Part shown: positions 25,465-32,730 of the stretch, piece by piece
Layout: every line of letters starts with the position of its first letter
Position numbering within the stretch: position 1 is the stretch's first letter
NCBI GenBank assembly: GCA_026414975.1
Contig: JAOAHZ010000002.1
Coordinates: 62,001 to 126,000 of the forward strand
From: Bacteroidia bacterium
GTDB taxonomy: Bacteria; Bacteroidota; Bacteroidia; SpSt-205
Reading direction: 5' to 3'
Length of the DNA stretch: 64,000 nucleotides
The notes under the pieces: generated by a model
The model's input: the letters and a program-made list of their open reading frames with translations, nothing else
Told to the model about the DNA's origin: nothing
Database searches by the model: none
Made by a program: the position numbers and the translations under genes

Positions 25465-25613
25465 TCAGCGAATATGCATGAATTTTCCCGAGAGACCCCG
25501 TCTATCTGACCGAGGGCTACTCTCTCCCCAAGCGGATAACTCAGCTTTCAGCCCCTGCAAGAGAGGGAATAGAAAAAAGAGGTAACTGTTCCCTTAGATC
25601 AAAAGGATTTGCG

Positions 25614-25621
25614 TACCTTTG
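25614..25621 (+). promoter_or_regulatory. -7 box (TACCTTTG) of the lipoprotein gene at 25630
   Basis: Eight nucleotides separate it from the ATG at 25630, which excludes the earlier TTG at 25609. Confidence 0.55.
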
Positions 25622-25629
25622 GGCCCGGT

Positions 25630-26619
25630 ATGCGTAGGATCACGAGATTGACGACTGTAGGGCTGACAGCAGCCTTAGCTGCAGCGATTTTCATCGCATG
25701 CAAGAGAGAAAAAGAGCAAAATGGACCAAGTATCCTCATCCCCAACGAACCTGATGTCATAGCTGGGGACAAAACGGTCCCTCCTGGCAGCACAACCCTT
25801 AAGTTCAAGTTCATTTTCCAAAAAGGCTCAGGCAAAGATGATGCTGATTTGAAGGATTTCTCCTTTACTTTCAACCAAGGAGGGGGTAATGTGCCAGCTT
25901 TTTCCAATCGTTCCGCACCGAACGGTACAAGCTTCACATGGGATACGACCTTCTCCATCAATGGTACAGCGGGAGCAGTCTATACTTACACTGTATCCGT
26001 ACGAGACAAAAATGATAAAACCGCCAGCCGAAGCATAAGAATAACCTTCCAGCAACCCAGTAGTGGGCAGCCCGGAGCCTACTTTACGGCTACTATAACG
26101 CTGGACACCGTGGACCGACCTTTTATTTACTTTACAGGAAACTCCATAACAGCTCAAAGCTTGTCTGGTCTATCCGAGGCAAGAGGTGTCATAGCCAGCC
26201 TTGTAGTGAGAAGGGTCAATATCAATCAGTATAGCGTTGTAACGCCTGACTCTCTGGGGAAAGGTAATTACACCTTCCCTTACCTGAACTGGACAGCCTC
26301 CCCTAAGCCCAGAACTACCTTTTATGCGATCACACCAAATGAATATGATGGTGTTACTGACTCTACCTCCGCTGCTCAGCTCATTGCAGGACTCCCAGAG
26401 GCAAACAAAACGAAATTCTCTGGTAATGCCGATGGGGCTCGGGCTCTTCTGAGTGGCACCCCTGACAATTCTACCACCACTAGTGGGCCTCATGAATTCC
26501 TCGCCTTTGACCAGCAATTCCCCGCTAACAGTCCTACCTCAAGAATCCGAGGAGTCATTAAGAGAACTAGCGTCAGCGGGGCTTCGGTAAGTTTGGAAGT
26601 AAAGGCTATCAGACAGTAA
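25630..26619 (+). CDS. Lipoprotein of unknown function
   Basis: 329 residues. A signal sequence ends in a lipobox (AAIFIAC) followed by charged residues (KREKEQNG). The first third looks like a beta-sandwich with PKD-like features (VPPGSTTLKFKFIFQ, YTYTVSVRDKNDKTASRSIRITF). The rest is Ser/Thr/Asn-rich, without Cys and with no motif I recognise. It is a single gene closed by a strong terminator at 26645-26685. Likely a surface or periplasmic lipoprotein; no function can be assigned. Confidence 0.75.
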   Translation: MRRITRLTTVGLTAALAAAIFIACKREKEQNGPSILIPNEPDVIAGDKTVPPGSTTLKFKFIFQKGSGKDDADLKDFSFTFNQGGGNVPAFSNRSAPNGTSFTWDTTFSINGTAGAVYTYTVSVRDKNDKTASRSIRITFQQPSSGQPGAYFTATITLDTVDRPFIYFTGNSITAQSLSGLSEARGVIASLVVRRVNINQYSVVTPDSLGKGNYTFPYLNWTASPKPRTTFYAITPNEYDGVTDSTSAAQLIAGLPEANKTKFSGNADGARALLSGTPDNSTTTSGPHEFLAFDQQFPANSPTSRIRGVIKRTSVSGASVSLEVKAIRQ

Positions 26620-26644
26620 CCCCTTCCTCAGCTGAGGGGGCTCA

Positions 26645-26685
26645 GGGAGGCACAACCTTAGTTGTGCCTCCCTGTTTGATTTTTT
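26645..26685 (+). terminator. Rho-independent terminator of the lipoprotein gene
   Basis: A perfect 12-bp stem (GGGAGGCACAAC) with a 4-nt loop is followed after 8 nt by a T-rich stretch. It lies 25 nt behind the stop. Confidence 0.75.
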
Positions 26686-26841: not shown

Positions 26842-28089
26842 ATGCGGTGGGGCTGGCTGATTGCTTGGGGAATCGGACTGGCTCAGGATACCTTATATCT
26901 GAGCCTTCAGGAGGCTGAACAACGCTTCTTAGAGAAGAACCTTCTCCTCTTAGCCCATAAGCTCCAAATAGAGGCAGAAAAGGCTCTTGTCTGGCAGGCA
27001 CGTCTCTGGCCTAACCCTCAACTTACAATAGAACAGTTAGACCCTTTCACCTCTGCCGAAGCAGGCTTTCCCCCCCTATTGAACAATCCCCGCATTAATC
27101 AGATTGCCTCTACCTTCTCTCAAACAATTTTGACAGCCCGGAAGCGGCTCAAAGGCATAGCTTTAGCCGAGGCTTCAGTTCAGGTCCAAGAAGCCGCATT
27201 TGCAGAACTCCTACGACAGCTTCGTTACGAGCTGCGTAAAACTCTATATGGACTTCAGCGCGATCAGGTACTTATTGAGCTCACCACTCGTCAAGCCGAG
27301 CTACTAAACCAGCTAAGCCAGCGGTATCGCCGCCTCAGCGAAAGCGCCCTCGTACCCCTTCCAGAATACCTCCGTATAGAAAATCTCTACATGCAGGCTC
27401 TTGCCGACCTACGAGAAATACGACAGCGCTGGGAAGCCCAGCAAAACACTCTACGACAACTTCTCCGCGTACCAGGCGAAGCACCTATTCTCTGGATAGA
27501 TACTACAGGCTTTTACCGAGCCAGTTTTCCCCTGATTCCCCCCTTGGAAGCCCTACTCAGCCGAGTAGGGCAGCGAGGCGATGTGAAGCTAGCAGCTGCT
27601 GAAATGCGCCTGCAAGAAGCGTCCTTGAGTGTAGAGCGAGCCTTAGCGTATCCGGATATAGACATTGTAGTGAATTTTGACCGAACAGGCGGTTACCGCT
27701 TCAACCAATGGGGTGTCGGGTGGGCTATGCCCCTTCCCCTGTTCAATCGGAATCAAGGACGAATCGCCGCTGCCCGCTACGCTCGTCAAGCCAGCGAGCT
27801 GCGTTATCAACAAGCCTACCTCACAGCTCAATCCGAAGTCATCCAAGCATGGCGCAATGCCCTTTTTATACGCTCTCAATGGGAGCAGACCTCATTGAAC
27901 CTCTTGGAACGATATCAGCGCGCCGAAGCCGCCTACAGAGAAAACCTCATGGCAGGGCGAATCGGATTTCTGACCTACATAGATTTTTTTGAAAGTTACC
28001 GCACCCTCACGACCAATATAACCGAGCTTTTCTATCTATCTCATCAGGTTCAGAATGATATACAATATGCGACGGGCGATTTTGAGTAG
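26842..28089 (+). CDS. Outer-membrane efflux protein, TolC/CusC family
   Basis: 415 residues, intact. A signal peptide (WLIAWGIGLAQ) is followed by two copies of the outer-membrane efflux repeat, long coiled-coil helices with LSLQEAEQRFLEKNLLLLAHKLQIEAEKALVWQARLWPNPQ at the start, as in CusC/CzcC. The second half has the internal motif WAMPLPLFNRNQGRIAAARY. It would be the outer-membrane channel of an RND pump for metal ions. It is followed by the adaptor, which overlaps its end by 23 bp, and the pump, both broken here. Confidence 0.92.
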   Translation: MRWGWLIAWGIGLAQDTLYLSLQEAEQRFLEKNLLLLAHKLQIEAEKALVWQARLWPNPQLTIEQLDPFTSAEAGFPPLLNNPRINQIASTFSQTILTARKRLKGIALAEASVQVQEAAFAELLRQLRYELRKTLYGLQRDQVLIELTTRQAELLNQLSQRYRRLSESALVPLPEYLRIENLYMQALADLREIRQRWEAQQNTLRQLLRVPGEAPILWIDTTGFYRASFPLIPPLEALLSRVGQRGDVKLAAAEMRLQEASLSVERALAYPDIDIVVNFDRTGGYRFNQWGVGWAMPLPLFNRNQGRIAAARYARQASELRYQQAYLTAQSEVIQAWRNALFIRSQWEQTSLNLLERYQRAEAAYRENLMAGRIGFLTYIDFFESYRTLTTNITELFYLSHQVQNDIQYATGDFE

Positions 28090-29124
28090 TTTAGTCTGGA
28101 TAGCGTGCTCCACGACCCACTCTTCTCAGAACGGAATACCTTTATGTACCGACAGTCTTTTGAGGACTCTTCACTTAGAAGCGGTACAAAAAGAAGCCCT
28201 GCCCGTAGAGCTGCGCGTGCCTGGAGAGATTGTCTCGGTACCAGAGCTGACCGTGGAGAGGCGATCGCTCGTAGAAGGCAGTATCATAGAGGTTTATGGG
28301 CGAGTGGGACAACCGGTCATAAAGGGAGCTCCCCTTCTACTCATAAGGTCACCTCAGCTTTTAGAGCGGGAAGCGCGTCCGCGAGCTGTACAAGCTCAAC
28401 TTCAAGTTCAGCGTCTGCGGGCTGAAGCTGTGGAACGCATGGGACAAGATAGTCTCGCTTCTATTATAGAAGTCCGTAATGCCCGAGCTGAGCTCTTAGC
28501 TTTAGAAGCTGAATATCAGCAGCTTTCGGAACAGCTTCAGTTATTTAGAAGACGAGGAGAGCTGACTTCATTCTGACCGCTCCACGCAGTGGGACGATTT
28601 TAGCTGCAGGGGTTTCAGCGGGGACGAGTGTAGAGCCAGGTGACTTCTTGCTTCGGATAGCGGACCTCAGCAGGGTGCGGCTACAGATGTATCTGTATCC
28701 CGAGCAGTTTACTCAGGCGGAAGTCGGTATGGCTGGAGAAGCCTTCCTTCCTGGATGGGATGAGTCAATAAAATTTCGCATCCAGCAGTTTCTCCCCACG
28801 CTCAATGAAGAAACCCGAGTTATCACAGCCTACACAGACCTTTCTAATCCGGGCCGCAAACTCCTGCCAGGGTCCTTCTTCCAAGCCAAGCTCCATTCCC
28901 TGCGTGCGGATTCGGCTATAGCTGCTCCGCTGAGCGCCCTAATCTTAGATGCCGACAGACGATACGCTCTGACCTATCGCTCCCCCTGTAAATGGGAGAT
29001 TCGCCCCGTGGAAGTTTTGCGTCAAACTACCGATAGGGTATATGTCCGTGGCTTAATGCCTCAAGAAACTGTGGCGACTCGTCAAGTCCTCTTCCTGTAC
29101 TATCAGCTCACTCGGACTCTATGA
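28067..29124 (+). pseudogene. RND adaptor (CusB/CzcB-like membrane-fusion lipoprotein), frameshifted
   Basis: Reading starts at the ATG at 28067 with a lipoprotein signal (LSSLVWIAC). It continues through the first lipoyl half (VEGSIIEVYGRVGQPVIKGAPLLLI) and the hairpin helices to RRRGELTSF, stopping at 28576. The family sequence continues in another frame: DFILTAPRSGTILAAGVSAG, then LLRIADLSRVRLQMYLYPEQF and the barrel domain, ending at 29124. A single-base loss between about 28549 and 28575 accounts for it. The pump start overlaps the end by ATGA. Either a true lesion or a sequence error; the neighbouring pump gene has more lesions of the same kind. Confidence 0.85.
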
Positions 29125-32100
29125 AGGGTATAGTTACTTTGGCTCTGAGGCGTCCAGTTTTCATAGTCTTTCTGACTCTCCTTATCGGTATAGGGGGTCT
29201 GATCGCCTACTTCTACACTCCCATAGAAGCCTATCCCGATGTTACGAGCACGCGAGCGCGGATTATCGTACAGTGGCCTGGTCGCAGCGCAGAAGAGGTG
29301 GAAAAGTTCATATCCCTACCGCTCACGCAAGCTCTGAGTACCATACCCCGCAAAAGGAGCATTCGCTCCATCTCACTTTTCGGATTGGCCAGGGTAAGCG
29401 TTTTATTTGACGATGATGTAGATGATTTTTTCGCTCAGCAGTATGCAGCGGCTCGTTTGTCTGGGGTGAAGTTACCCGAAGGAGCCGAAGCCTACTTAGA
29501 GCCGCCTTACGGAGCCACAGGCGAAATCTTTCGATACATTCTTCGTGGAGACCGACCGCTACGAGACCTTTACGCTCTCCAAACTTGGGTCGTAGAGCGG
29601 CAACTTGTTCAAGTACCTGGCGTCGCTGATGTGGTATCCTTCGGCGGCGAAGAGAAAATCTATGAAGTCCAGATAAATCCCGCTCGCCTACAGGCTTACG
29701 AACTTAGCCCCCTGGATGTGATAGAAGCCTTGGCTCGCAGCAACATCAATGTCGGAGGCGACATTATCGTCCAGGGCGATCAAGCTTATGTAGTACGCGG
29801 TATTGGGCTCTTGGAATCACCCGAGGATATTGAGAACCTAATCATTGACTTTAGGAAAAACCTGCCCATTTATGTGAAAAATGTGGCACGGGTCATCATT
29901 TCCGCAGAGCCTCGACTGGGCCAGTGCGGCTACAACGAGCTGGATGATGTCGTTCAAGGTATCGTCCTCATGCGGCGCGGAGAGGACCCCTCTAAGGTGA
30001 TTCCACGCCTCAAAGAAAAAATTCATGGACTCGACTCTCGCATTCTACCACCTGGAGTTTATATAGAACCCTTTTAGACCGTACAGAACTGATCCAGACC
30101 ACGGTCCGTACCGTCACCCGAAACCTGCTTGAGGGGGCTCTACTGGTAGCTCTTGTTGTAGGGCTCTTCCTATGGGAGTGGAGAGCTGTTCTGATTATCG
30201 TATCGGTCATGCCCTTAGCTTTCCTATTCGCTCTCCTTATGTTGCGGTTTCAGGGACTTCCAGCTAACCTCATTTCTATGGGTGCCTTGGACTTTGGGCT
30301 TCTATTAGAAGGAACCCTCGTTATCGTGGAGAGCGCCATGGTCGCACTCACTCATCTCAGACAAAAAGTCCCCTCGGAACTCCTCCCCTCTCTATCCAAA
30401 AGTGGTCTTCTTCGCCGAGTCATTGCCCAGAATGCTCGGTATATCTTCACCGCTCAGCTGATCTTAATTCTTACTCTGCTGCCTATATTCTTGTTTGAAC
30501 GGGTAGAGGGAAAGCTCTTCAAGCCTCTGGCTTTTACGCTAGGGTATGCGATGCTGGGTGCTTTGATCCTAAGCCTGACTTATGTCCCAGCCATGCTTCG
30601 CCTGCTTTATCAACGGGTGCCTAACGAACCTTCTATGCGTTGGATAGAAAATTTTCTCTATCCGTGGCGATTACTTTCTAATCTTGGATGGTCTTACCTT
30701 CGCAGTACCCTTATTGCCTACGCTGCTTTAGGGATAGCCTCGATGGTGGCTTTCATTTACTATGGTTCAGAGTTCGTCCCCAAGCTTAATGAAGGAGCTC
30801 TTTATGTACGAGGACCCTACCCATCAGCGTGAAGCTAGAAGAGACTGTAGAACTTGCCCAAAATGTCAAGCGGCAGCTTCTTCAAGTACCTGAGGTGCGA
30901 TTTGTCTTATTCCAAGCTGGCCGCCCCAACGATGGCACCGACCCACTGGCTTTTTCAACTTGGAGCTTCATGTACAGCTACATCCTCAAGAAAACTGGCG
31001 TAAAGGCATTACTTGAGAAAAGCTCATAGATGACATTCGCCATTTGCTTCGCTCCTACATCGGTGTGCGCTGGACTATCAGCCAACCTATTCAGGACAAC
31101 ATAGAAGAATACGTCTCCGGCGTAAAAAGCTCCATAGCTGTCAAGGTCTTTGGTCAAGACCTGAAAGAGTTAGAGAGCTATGCCAAACAAATCGCTCAGA
31201 TTCTACAAGGCGTTCAGGGTATTGAAGATGTCAATCCCTTTCAGAGTTTAGGCTTACCAGAGCTGAGGATTCGGTTAGATGAGATACGAATGGCGCGCTA
31301 CGGGGTTAGCATGAGAGAAGCTCAGGCGGTGATTGAGAGCGCTATTGGGGGACGCACTGTTACCTACTTCTATGAAGGTGAAAGATATTTTGATGTGCGG
31401 GTACGGTTAGACAAATCCTATCGAGACAATCCTCAAGCCATCGCTGTGCTTCGGGTTCCCAGTTTGACTGGGCAACAAGTTCCTCTATCTGAAATTGCCG
31501 ACATAAGAGTTCAGACGGGTGCGGCGTTTATTTATCGGGAGGGGCCTCAGCGGTATGTTGCTGTGGGCTTTTCAGTAAGCAGTCGGGACTTAGGAGGTAC
31601 TATCGCCGAAGCTCAGCGTCGCGTCCAGCAAAGTATCAGACTACCCCGCCACATATCTATAAGTTGGGAAGGTGAGTTTGAAAGTAAGCAAAGAGCTACG
31701 CGTCAGCTCGCTATTATTGTGCCCGCCGTGGTTGGCTTGATCCTTTTCGTGCTGTATTTCCACTTTGGCTCTCTTAAGGAGATGCTAATAGCAGCTCTCA
31801 CTTTACCCTTTGGATTTATAGGGGGAATGCTAGCCTGGATGAGTACCGGTACTGTATTCGGCATTTCGGCAGGGGTCGGTATGATTATTGTACTTGGGTT
31901 CAATACCCCCAATGCTCTCATACTTTTGGGTGATTTACGAGGCAAAAGGACTCTTGAGGCTGCCCGAGAAGTAGTTCTACATCGAGTGCGCCCGCTGGTG
32001 ATGGTCATGCTAATAGGGTCTCTGGGCCTCTTGCCTGCAGCCACTTCCACACAAATGGGGTCTGAGGTTCAAAAACCTCTGGCTATTACAATCGTACTGG

Positions 32101-32177
32101 GCATGCCTGTATGCTTGATTCTGGCTTTGCTCGTGATTCCAGCCTTGTACCGTACCTTCTTCCGTTTGAGCCGATAA
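29121..32177 (+). pseudogene. RND heavy-metal efflux pump (CusA/CzcA family), three frameshifts and one internal stop
   Basis: The protein can be followed from the start (IEAYPDVTSTRARIIVQWPG) to the end in four blocks. Frame is lost at 30072-30075 (EPF, then LDRTELIQ in the next frame), at 30820-30822 (RGPYP, then ISVKLEETVELA), and at 30942-30944 (NDGTDP, then TGFFNLELHVQLHPQ). Each is repaired by adding one base to a short run (TTTT, CCC, CCC). The restored frame then meets TGA at 31014-31016 inside WRKGIT-EKLIDDI, where relatives have a basic residue. From there to 32177 it is intact (SQPIQDNIEEYVSGVKSSIAVKVFG and the last membrane bundle). Confidence 0.88.
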
Positions 32178-32183
32178 CTTTGC
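32175..32183 (+). promoter_or_regulatory. -7 box (TAACTTTGC) overlapping the pump stop codon
   Basis: The TAA stop of the pump gene forms the TA of the box. Five nucleotides follow before the GTG start of the TetR gene. Confidence 0.55.
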
Positions 32184-32187
32184 GCCT

Positions 32188-32730
32188 GTGGATGCCGCAG
32201 AACGCATAAAAGAAGCCGCTGTCCAGGAGTTCGCTCGACATGGCTACGATGGAGCACGCTTAGAGCGAATCGCTCGGGCAGCCGGCGTCCACACCGCTCA
32301 GATCCACTATTATTTTCGGAACAAACGGCATCTATATGAAACTGTCCAACCTCTCTTGACCCCCCCTTCTTTAGAGAGCGTCATAGAACCCCTAAGGGAA
32401 GCAGGAAAACCGCTTCCTGAACGAGTGCAATCCTTCTACGAGCGCTTTTATGAAGCAGCCCAGCACTTAGTGTGCGGCAAAGGACATTCCGCTCTCTTAC
32501 CCCCTATCCTGCTAAATCCTCAGCCGTTAGCCGTCCCTCAATGGAAAGAAGCTCTACAAAACGCTCAGACAATCGGACTACTCAAGCCCTTGCGCATGGA
32601 ATTCATCCTCGCCCAGCAGTGGTCTCTGGCCCTTTTGCCAATCTGGTTTGATTTTCCTAAAGACAGCTGGCAGGAGTACTATTCCAGGGAAGCCCCTCGT
32701 CTCTTCTGGGAAGCTGTGAGGAGTGTATAA
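32188..32730 (+). CDS. TetR-family transcriptional regulator
   Basis: 180 residues from a GTG. The N-terminal helix-turn-helix is typical (RIKEAAVQEFARHGYDGARLERIARAAGVHTAQIHYYFRNKRHLYE). The C-terminal ligand domain is divergent (EPLREAGKPLPERVQSFYERFYEA). Its position directly behind the efflux genes suggests that it regulates them or itself. It is intact although the pump is broken. It has its own promoter overlapping the pump stop. Confidence 0.9.
   Translation: MDAAERIKEAAVQEFARHGYDGARLERIARAAGVHTAQIHYYFRNKRHLYETVQPLLTPPSLESVIEPLREAGKPLPERVQSFYERFYEAAQHLVCGKGHSALLPPILLNPQPLAVPQWKEALQNAQTIGLLKPLRMEFILAQQWSLALLPIWFDFPKDSWQEYYSREAPRLFWEAVRSV

Follow-up and report, generated by a model that had tools for sequence, protein, structure and literature searches.

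Probable recent decay of the adaptor and pump genes in a metal-efflux operon of a Bacteroidia bacterium

In the 64,000-nucleotide stretch of DNA analyzed here (the window), which comes from a draft Bacteroidia genome of 2.2 Mb in 58 contigs with a completeness of 97% (G000), two adjacent genes encoding the adaptor and the pump of a metal exporter are interrupted by several lesions. This raises the question of whether the exporter has truly decayed in this lineage, or whether its reading frames were broken by faults in the sequence. The kinship of G000 with an organism apparently from the Katase hot-spring study suggests that its habitat is a hot spring.

Layout of the operon and its five lesions

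The operon (26842-32730) comprises, on one strand, genes for a TolC-type channel, an adaptor, a pump, and a TetR-type regulator, with the ends of the first three genes overlapping (Table 1). Matches to OEP, RND_mfp, and ACR_tran followed one another in this order, which is shared with the congeners G004, G005, and G009. A strong terminator-like hairpin of 14 pairs was observed upstream of the operon (26643-26674) and probably terminates the gene at 25609-26619. No promoter-like excess was found, and an Rfam search across the window returned no match. When subjected to frame-aware alignment, TolC and TetR were 76% and 73% identical to their G004 counterparts, respectively, with zero frame breaks, consistent with a preliminary description of this DNA in which the channel and the regulator were considered to be intact. 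The two halves of the adaptor matched positions 3-129 and 163-307 of the 322 positions of the RND_mfp model TIGR01730. The open pieces of the pump matched positions 5-326, 375-573, and 660-1037 of the TIGR00914 model (E 1e-36 to 1e-89), and none of them alone reached the 701 bits set as the cut-off for the whole protein. The charged motif of the fourth transmembrane helix (D...D/E...E), a mark of HME-RND pumps, reads GALDFGLLLEGTLVIVE in the window and is the same in congeners. A continuous frame of about 1000 codons is absent from the window pump, which contains three frame breaks and one TGA; judged by its sequence, it is a predicted pseudogene of the TIGR00914 family and not a working member.

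Table 1. Genes of the efflux operon and lesions in its adaptor and pump (positions in the window)
Feature	Position	Strand	Evidence
Outer-membrane efflux channel (TolC/OEP), 415 aa, intact	26842..28089	+	PF02321, E 1.3e-30
Periplasmic adaptor (HlyD/CusB-like), predicted pseudogene	28055..29124	+	Two frames: 28055-28576, 28648-29124
HME-type RND pump (ZneA/CzcA/CusA-like), predicted pseudogene	29121..32177	+	Open pieces: 29121-30077, 30209-30832, 31044-32177
TetR-family regulator, 180 aa, intact	32188..32730	+	PF00440, E 1.1e-12
Lesion 1, adaptor, net +2 in AG-rich repeat	28552..28563	+	Frame-aware alignment, placement scoring
Lesion 2, pump, net -1	30072..30076	+	Frame-aware alignment, placement scoring
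Lesion 3, pump, net -1	30812..30816	+	Frame-aware alignment, placement scoring
Lesion 4, pump, net -1	30942..30946	+	Frame-aware alignment, placement scoring
Lesion 5, in-frame TGA, pump codon 633	31014..31016	+	Frame-aware alignment

Within the genus, relatives of the pump were found in the Bacteroidia MAGs SKYB95 (G004), KatS3mg025 (G005), and SKW103 (G009). The comparison with close relatives that had been suggested earlier yielded intact orthologues of the adaptor and pump (G004, G009, and G011): the adaptor is 359 aa long in G004 and 357 aa in G009, and the pump, of 1019-1021 aa, occupies one continuous frame in G004 and G009, which belong to the genus of G000, and in G011, a member of its family. 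Relative to these orthologues, both window genes carry disabling lesions, as pseudogenes do. The lesions were mapped by frame-aware alignment to the intact proteins of G004, G009, and G011, and their places agreed across the references used. The preliminary description had reported five lesions in the two adjacent genes, namely four single-base losses, three of them at runs of 3-4 bases, and a nonsense TGA at 31014. The total and most of the places were upheld, as were the three losses in the pump, and the TGA was confirmed to be in frame by alignment to congener pumps. Lesion 3, however, lies at about 30812-30816 and not at 30820-30822, and the adaptor lesion is a gain of two bases; when all placements were scored, the net +2 gain reached 371, as opposed to 144 for a one-base loss. 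With respect to sequence context, two of the pump losses do occur at runs of 3-4 bases, whereas the break at 30814 sits at GG/A and the adaptor lesion falls within its AG repeat.

Sequencing error and recoding as alternatives

Were the lesions the product of a local sequencing or assembly fault over 28.5-31.0 kb (from low coverage or a long-read bridge left unpolished), the pump would be intact in the organism. Low coverage is able to yield both spurious frameshifts and stops (PMC11017572), the lesions are mostly indels, and neither gene shows accelerated amino-acid change. The lesions also include, however, one dinucleotide gain and one substitution. As a control, about 576 kb of G000 was compared with 2,911 ORFs from G005, a congener assembled as a single contig; 410 congener proteins were matched, covering about 435 kb of G000 coding DNA, and at the threshold of 55% identity the adaptor was left uncounted, because its identity to G005 is below that value. 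Only three credible frame breaks were found in this matched coding DNA, all of them in this pump, once most 'STOP' rows, which came from shadow frames or overextended ends, had been set aside without row-by-row checking. The sole further frame-shift row in G000 was a 40%-identity match and probably a shadow frame. At the 95% upper background rate, the probability of three breaks within 3.06 kb is about 1.6e-6. The earlier observation that other genes are clean was thus extended well beyond the window. Moreover, longer runs are correct in G000: homopolymers of 5-6 bases in the adaptor and pump were in frame in 16 of 16 cases, as were the C7 and T7 runs in TolC and TetR. In another part of the genome, TATAAGAGACAG, which we take to be the terminal part of the mosaic end of the Nextera transposon, follows nine N at G000:C11:167025-167045 (L105:7025-7045), between C-rich runs; its position beside an N gap implies that the G000 assembly is at least partly Illumina. 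The operon is also intact on a G004 contig whose name gives a cov of 4.48. Given the clean control, the in-frame long homopolymers, and the Illumina remnant, real decay is far likelier than error, in agreement with the preliminary description, which had preferred decay to clustered sequencing errors, and a local fault is unlikely. On a separate matter, an adapter remnant appears to have been left in the public assembly at this scaffold joint.

A further point that might seem to favor a local fault is that the frame of the G005 pump gene (L030:5295-8352) is also broken, once, at a GGGGG run. In the reverse comparison, several breaks were detected in G005, including in rpoB and rpoC, which were named by their size, order, and neighborhood. 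Since these two genes are broken in the same assembly, the G005 pump break cannot be read as decay, and independent decay of that pump is not claimed; the break is probably an assembly indel. G005 (contig KatS3mg025) seems to belong to the Katase hot-spring study, in which MAGs are numbered mg0xx and PacBio HiFi was used (PMC9671151). It is also conceivable that the pieces are functional, being either separately translated or joined by recoding, and every open piece does match its own part of the pump family. Nevertheless, recoding would be needed at three frame changes plus a stop, and G004, G009, and G011 use a single continuous frame. TGA ends 102 of 246 long ORFs in G000 and is an ordinary stop, on which ground recoding or an alternative code was rejected. 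We consider functional pieces extremely improbable.

Age of the probable decay and apparent dispensability of the operon

Because synonymous sites were saturated, branch dN/dS was unusable, and other measures of constraint were employed. In a profile-based test for relaxed constraint, the private amino-acid changes of the G000 pump were no more neutral-looking than those of its congeners (maximum-likelihood neutral fraction 0.03, interval 0-0.32). Likewise, the relative rate of G000 to G004 showed no excess in the pump and adaptor (84:71) when compared with five control genes (103:97; p 0.67); as tests of relaxed selection, these comparisons have a power bounded at around a dozen neutral changes. 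TolC and TetR were slightly faster on the G000 branch than on that of its sister (48:22, compared with 103:97 for the controls; p 0.017, one of four comparisons). The lack of excess amino-acid change in the pump and adaptor suggests that the decay is recent. Five lesions can be reconciled with such a small number of substitutions, although with little room to spare.

The distribution of the operon was examined in the genus. A close orthologue of the C-terminal third of the pump was missing from 6 of the 10 congeners examined, and 4 of these 6 are 92-99% complete. The pump orthologue was present in G004, G005, and G009, as well as in G001, where it lies at a contig end; truncation there was accordingly ruled out as decay. 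Relative to the flanking genes of the window, G005 carries the operon elsewhere. This distribution marks it as an accessory operon of the genus, a status that fits its loss. The search for another intact CusA-type pump, also suggested earlier, revealed a second, intact CusA/CzcA-family pump at G000:C11:230053-233058 that scores above the TIGR00914 cut-off and has no adjoining adaptor or channel gene. Full-length frames about 30% identical to the broken pump occur in several congeners. Both the lack of a close orthologue in 6 of 10 congeners and the second intact pump were counted as signs of dispensability. The second pump is, at the same time, an example of a candidate partner encoded elsewhere, for which the channel and TetR could be kept under selection, the operon being re-used and not simply lost; we regard such re-use as quite improbable.

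Probable decay of the exporter and comparison with known systems

Taken together, these data make it very probable that the adaptor and pump are ordinary, recent pseudogenes, and that an HME-RND metal exporter operon has undergone real decay in the G000 lineage. The ancestral operon would have encoded a tripartite exporter (outer-membrane channel, adaptor, and proton-driven pump) together with a TetR regulator, and its substrate was presumably a divalent, zinc-like metal. The accessory pump may first have lost its selective value; one hit would then have inactivated it, and more hits would have accrued before point substitutions or deletion could. The likely route involved slippage that added two bases, the loss of one base at each of three sites, and a substitution that created a nonsense codon, leaving the TolC and TetR frames open, and the disabled frames suggest that the adaptor and pump have lost their function. 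The kind of operon and the kind of decay are both familiar, and the case is ordinary in this respect. The locus illustrates, cleanly and on a small scale, the decay of an accessory metal-efflux operon in what appears to be a hot-spring lineage: the lesions have struck the adaptor and pump, and the genes flanking them are still open. It makes a modest addition to data on the loss of such operons. Moreover, it shows that genuine decay can be told apart from assembly errors in a metagenome-assembled genome when the proteome of a congener serves as a control across the genome.

Among solved structures, the zinc pump ZneA (PDB 4k0e) was closest to the intact G004 pump orthologue, which matched ZneA over its full length with 674.7 bits, compared with 495 for CusA. 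Like HME-RND systems of the ZneCAB/CzcCBA type, the window operon combines the genes for channel, adaptor, and pump; unlike in those systems, the adaptor and pump are broken and the regulator is of the TetR type. ZneA has D-F-G-I-I-V-D-G, whereas intact congener pumps have D-F-G-L-L-L-E-G. CusCBA (CusA, PDB 3k07) has the TIGR00914 family and the tripartite plan in common with the window operon, but CusA is more distant than ZneA from the intact G004 pump, and a copper/silver substrate is unsupported. With regard to the mode of decay, the window genes resemble young Salmonella pseudogenes in their short indels, premature stops, and little sequence divergence (PMC2916853). They differ in bearing five lesions over two adjacent genes, more than most pseudogenes of Salmonella, in which multiple inactivating mutations were present in 32 of 378 curated examples (PMC2916853).
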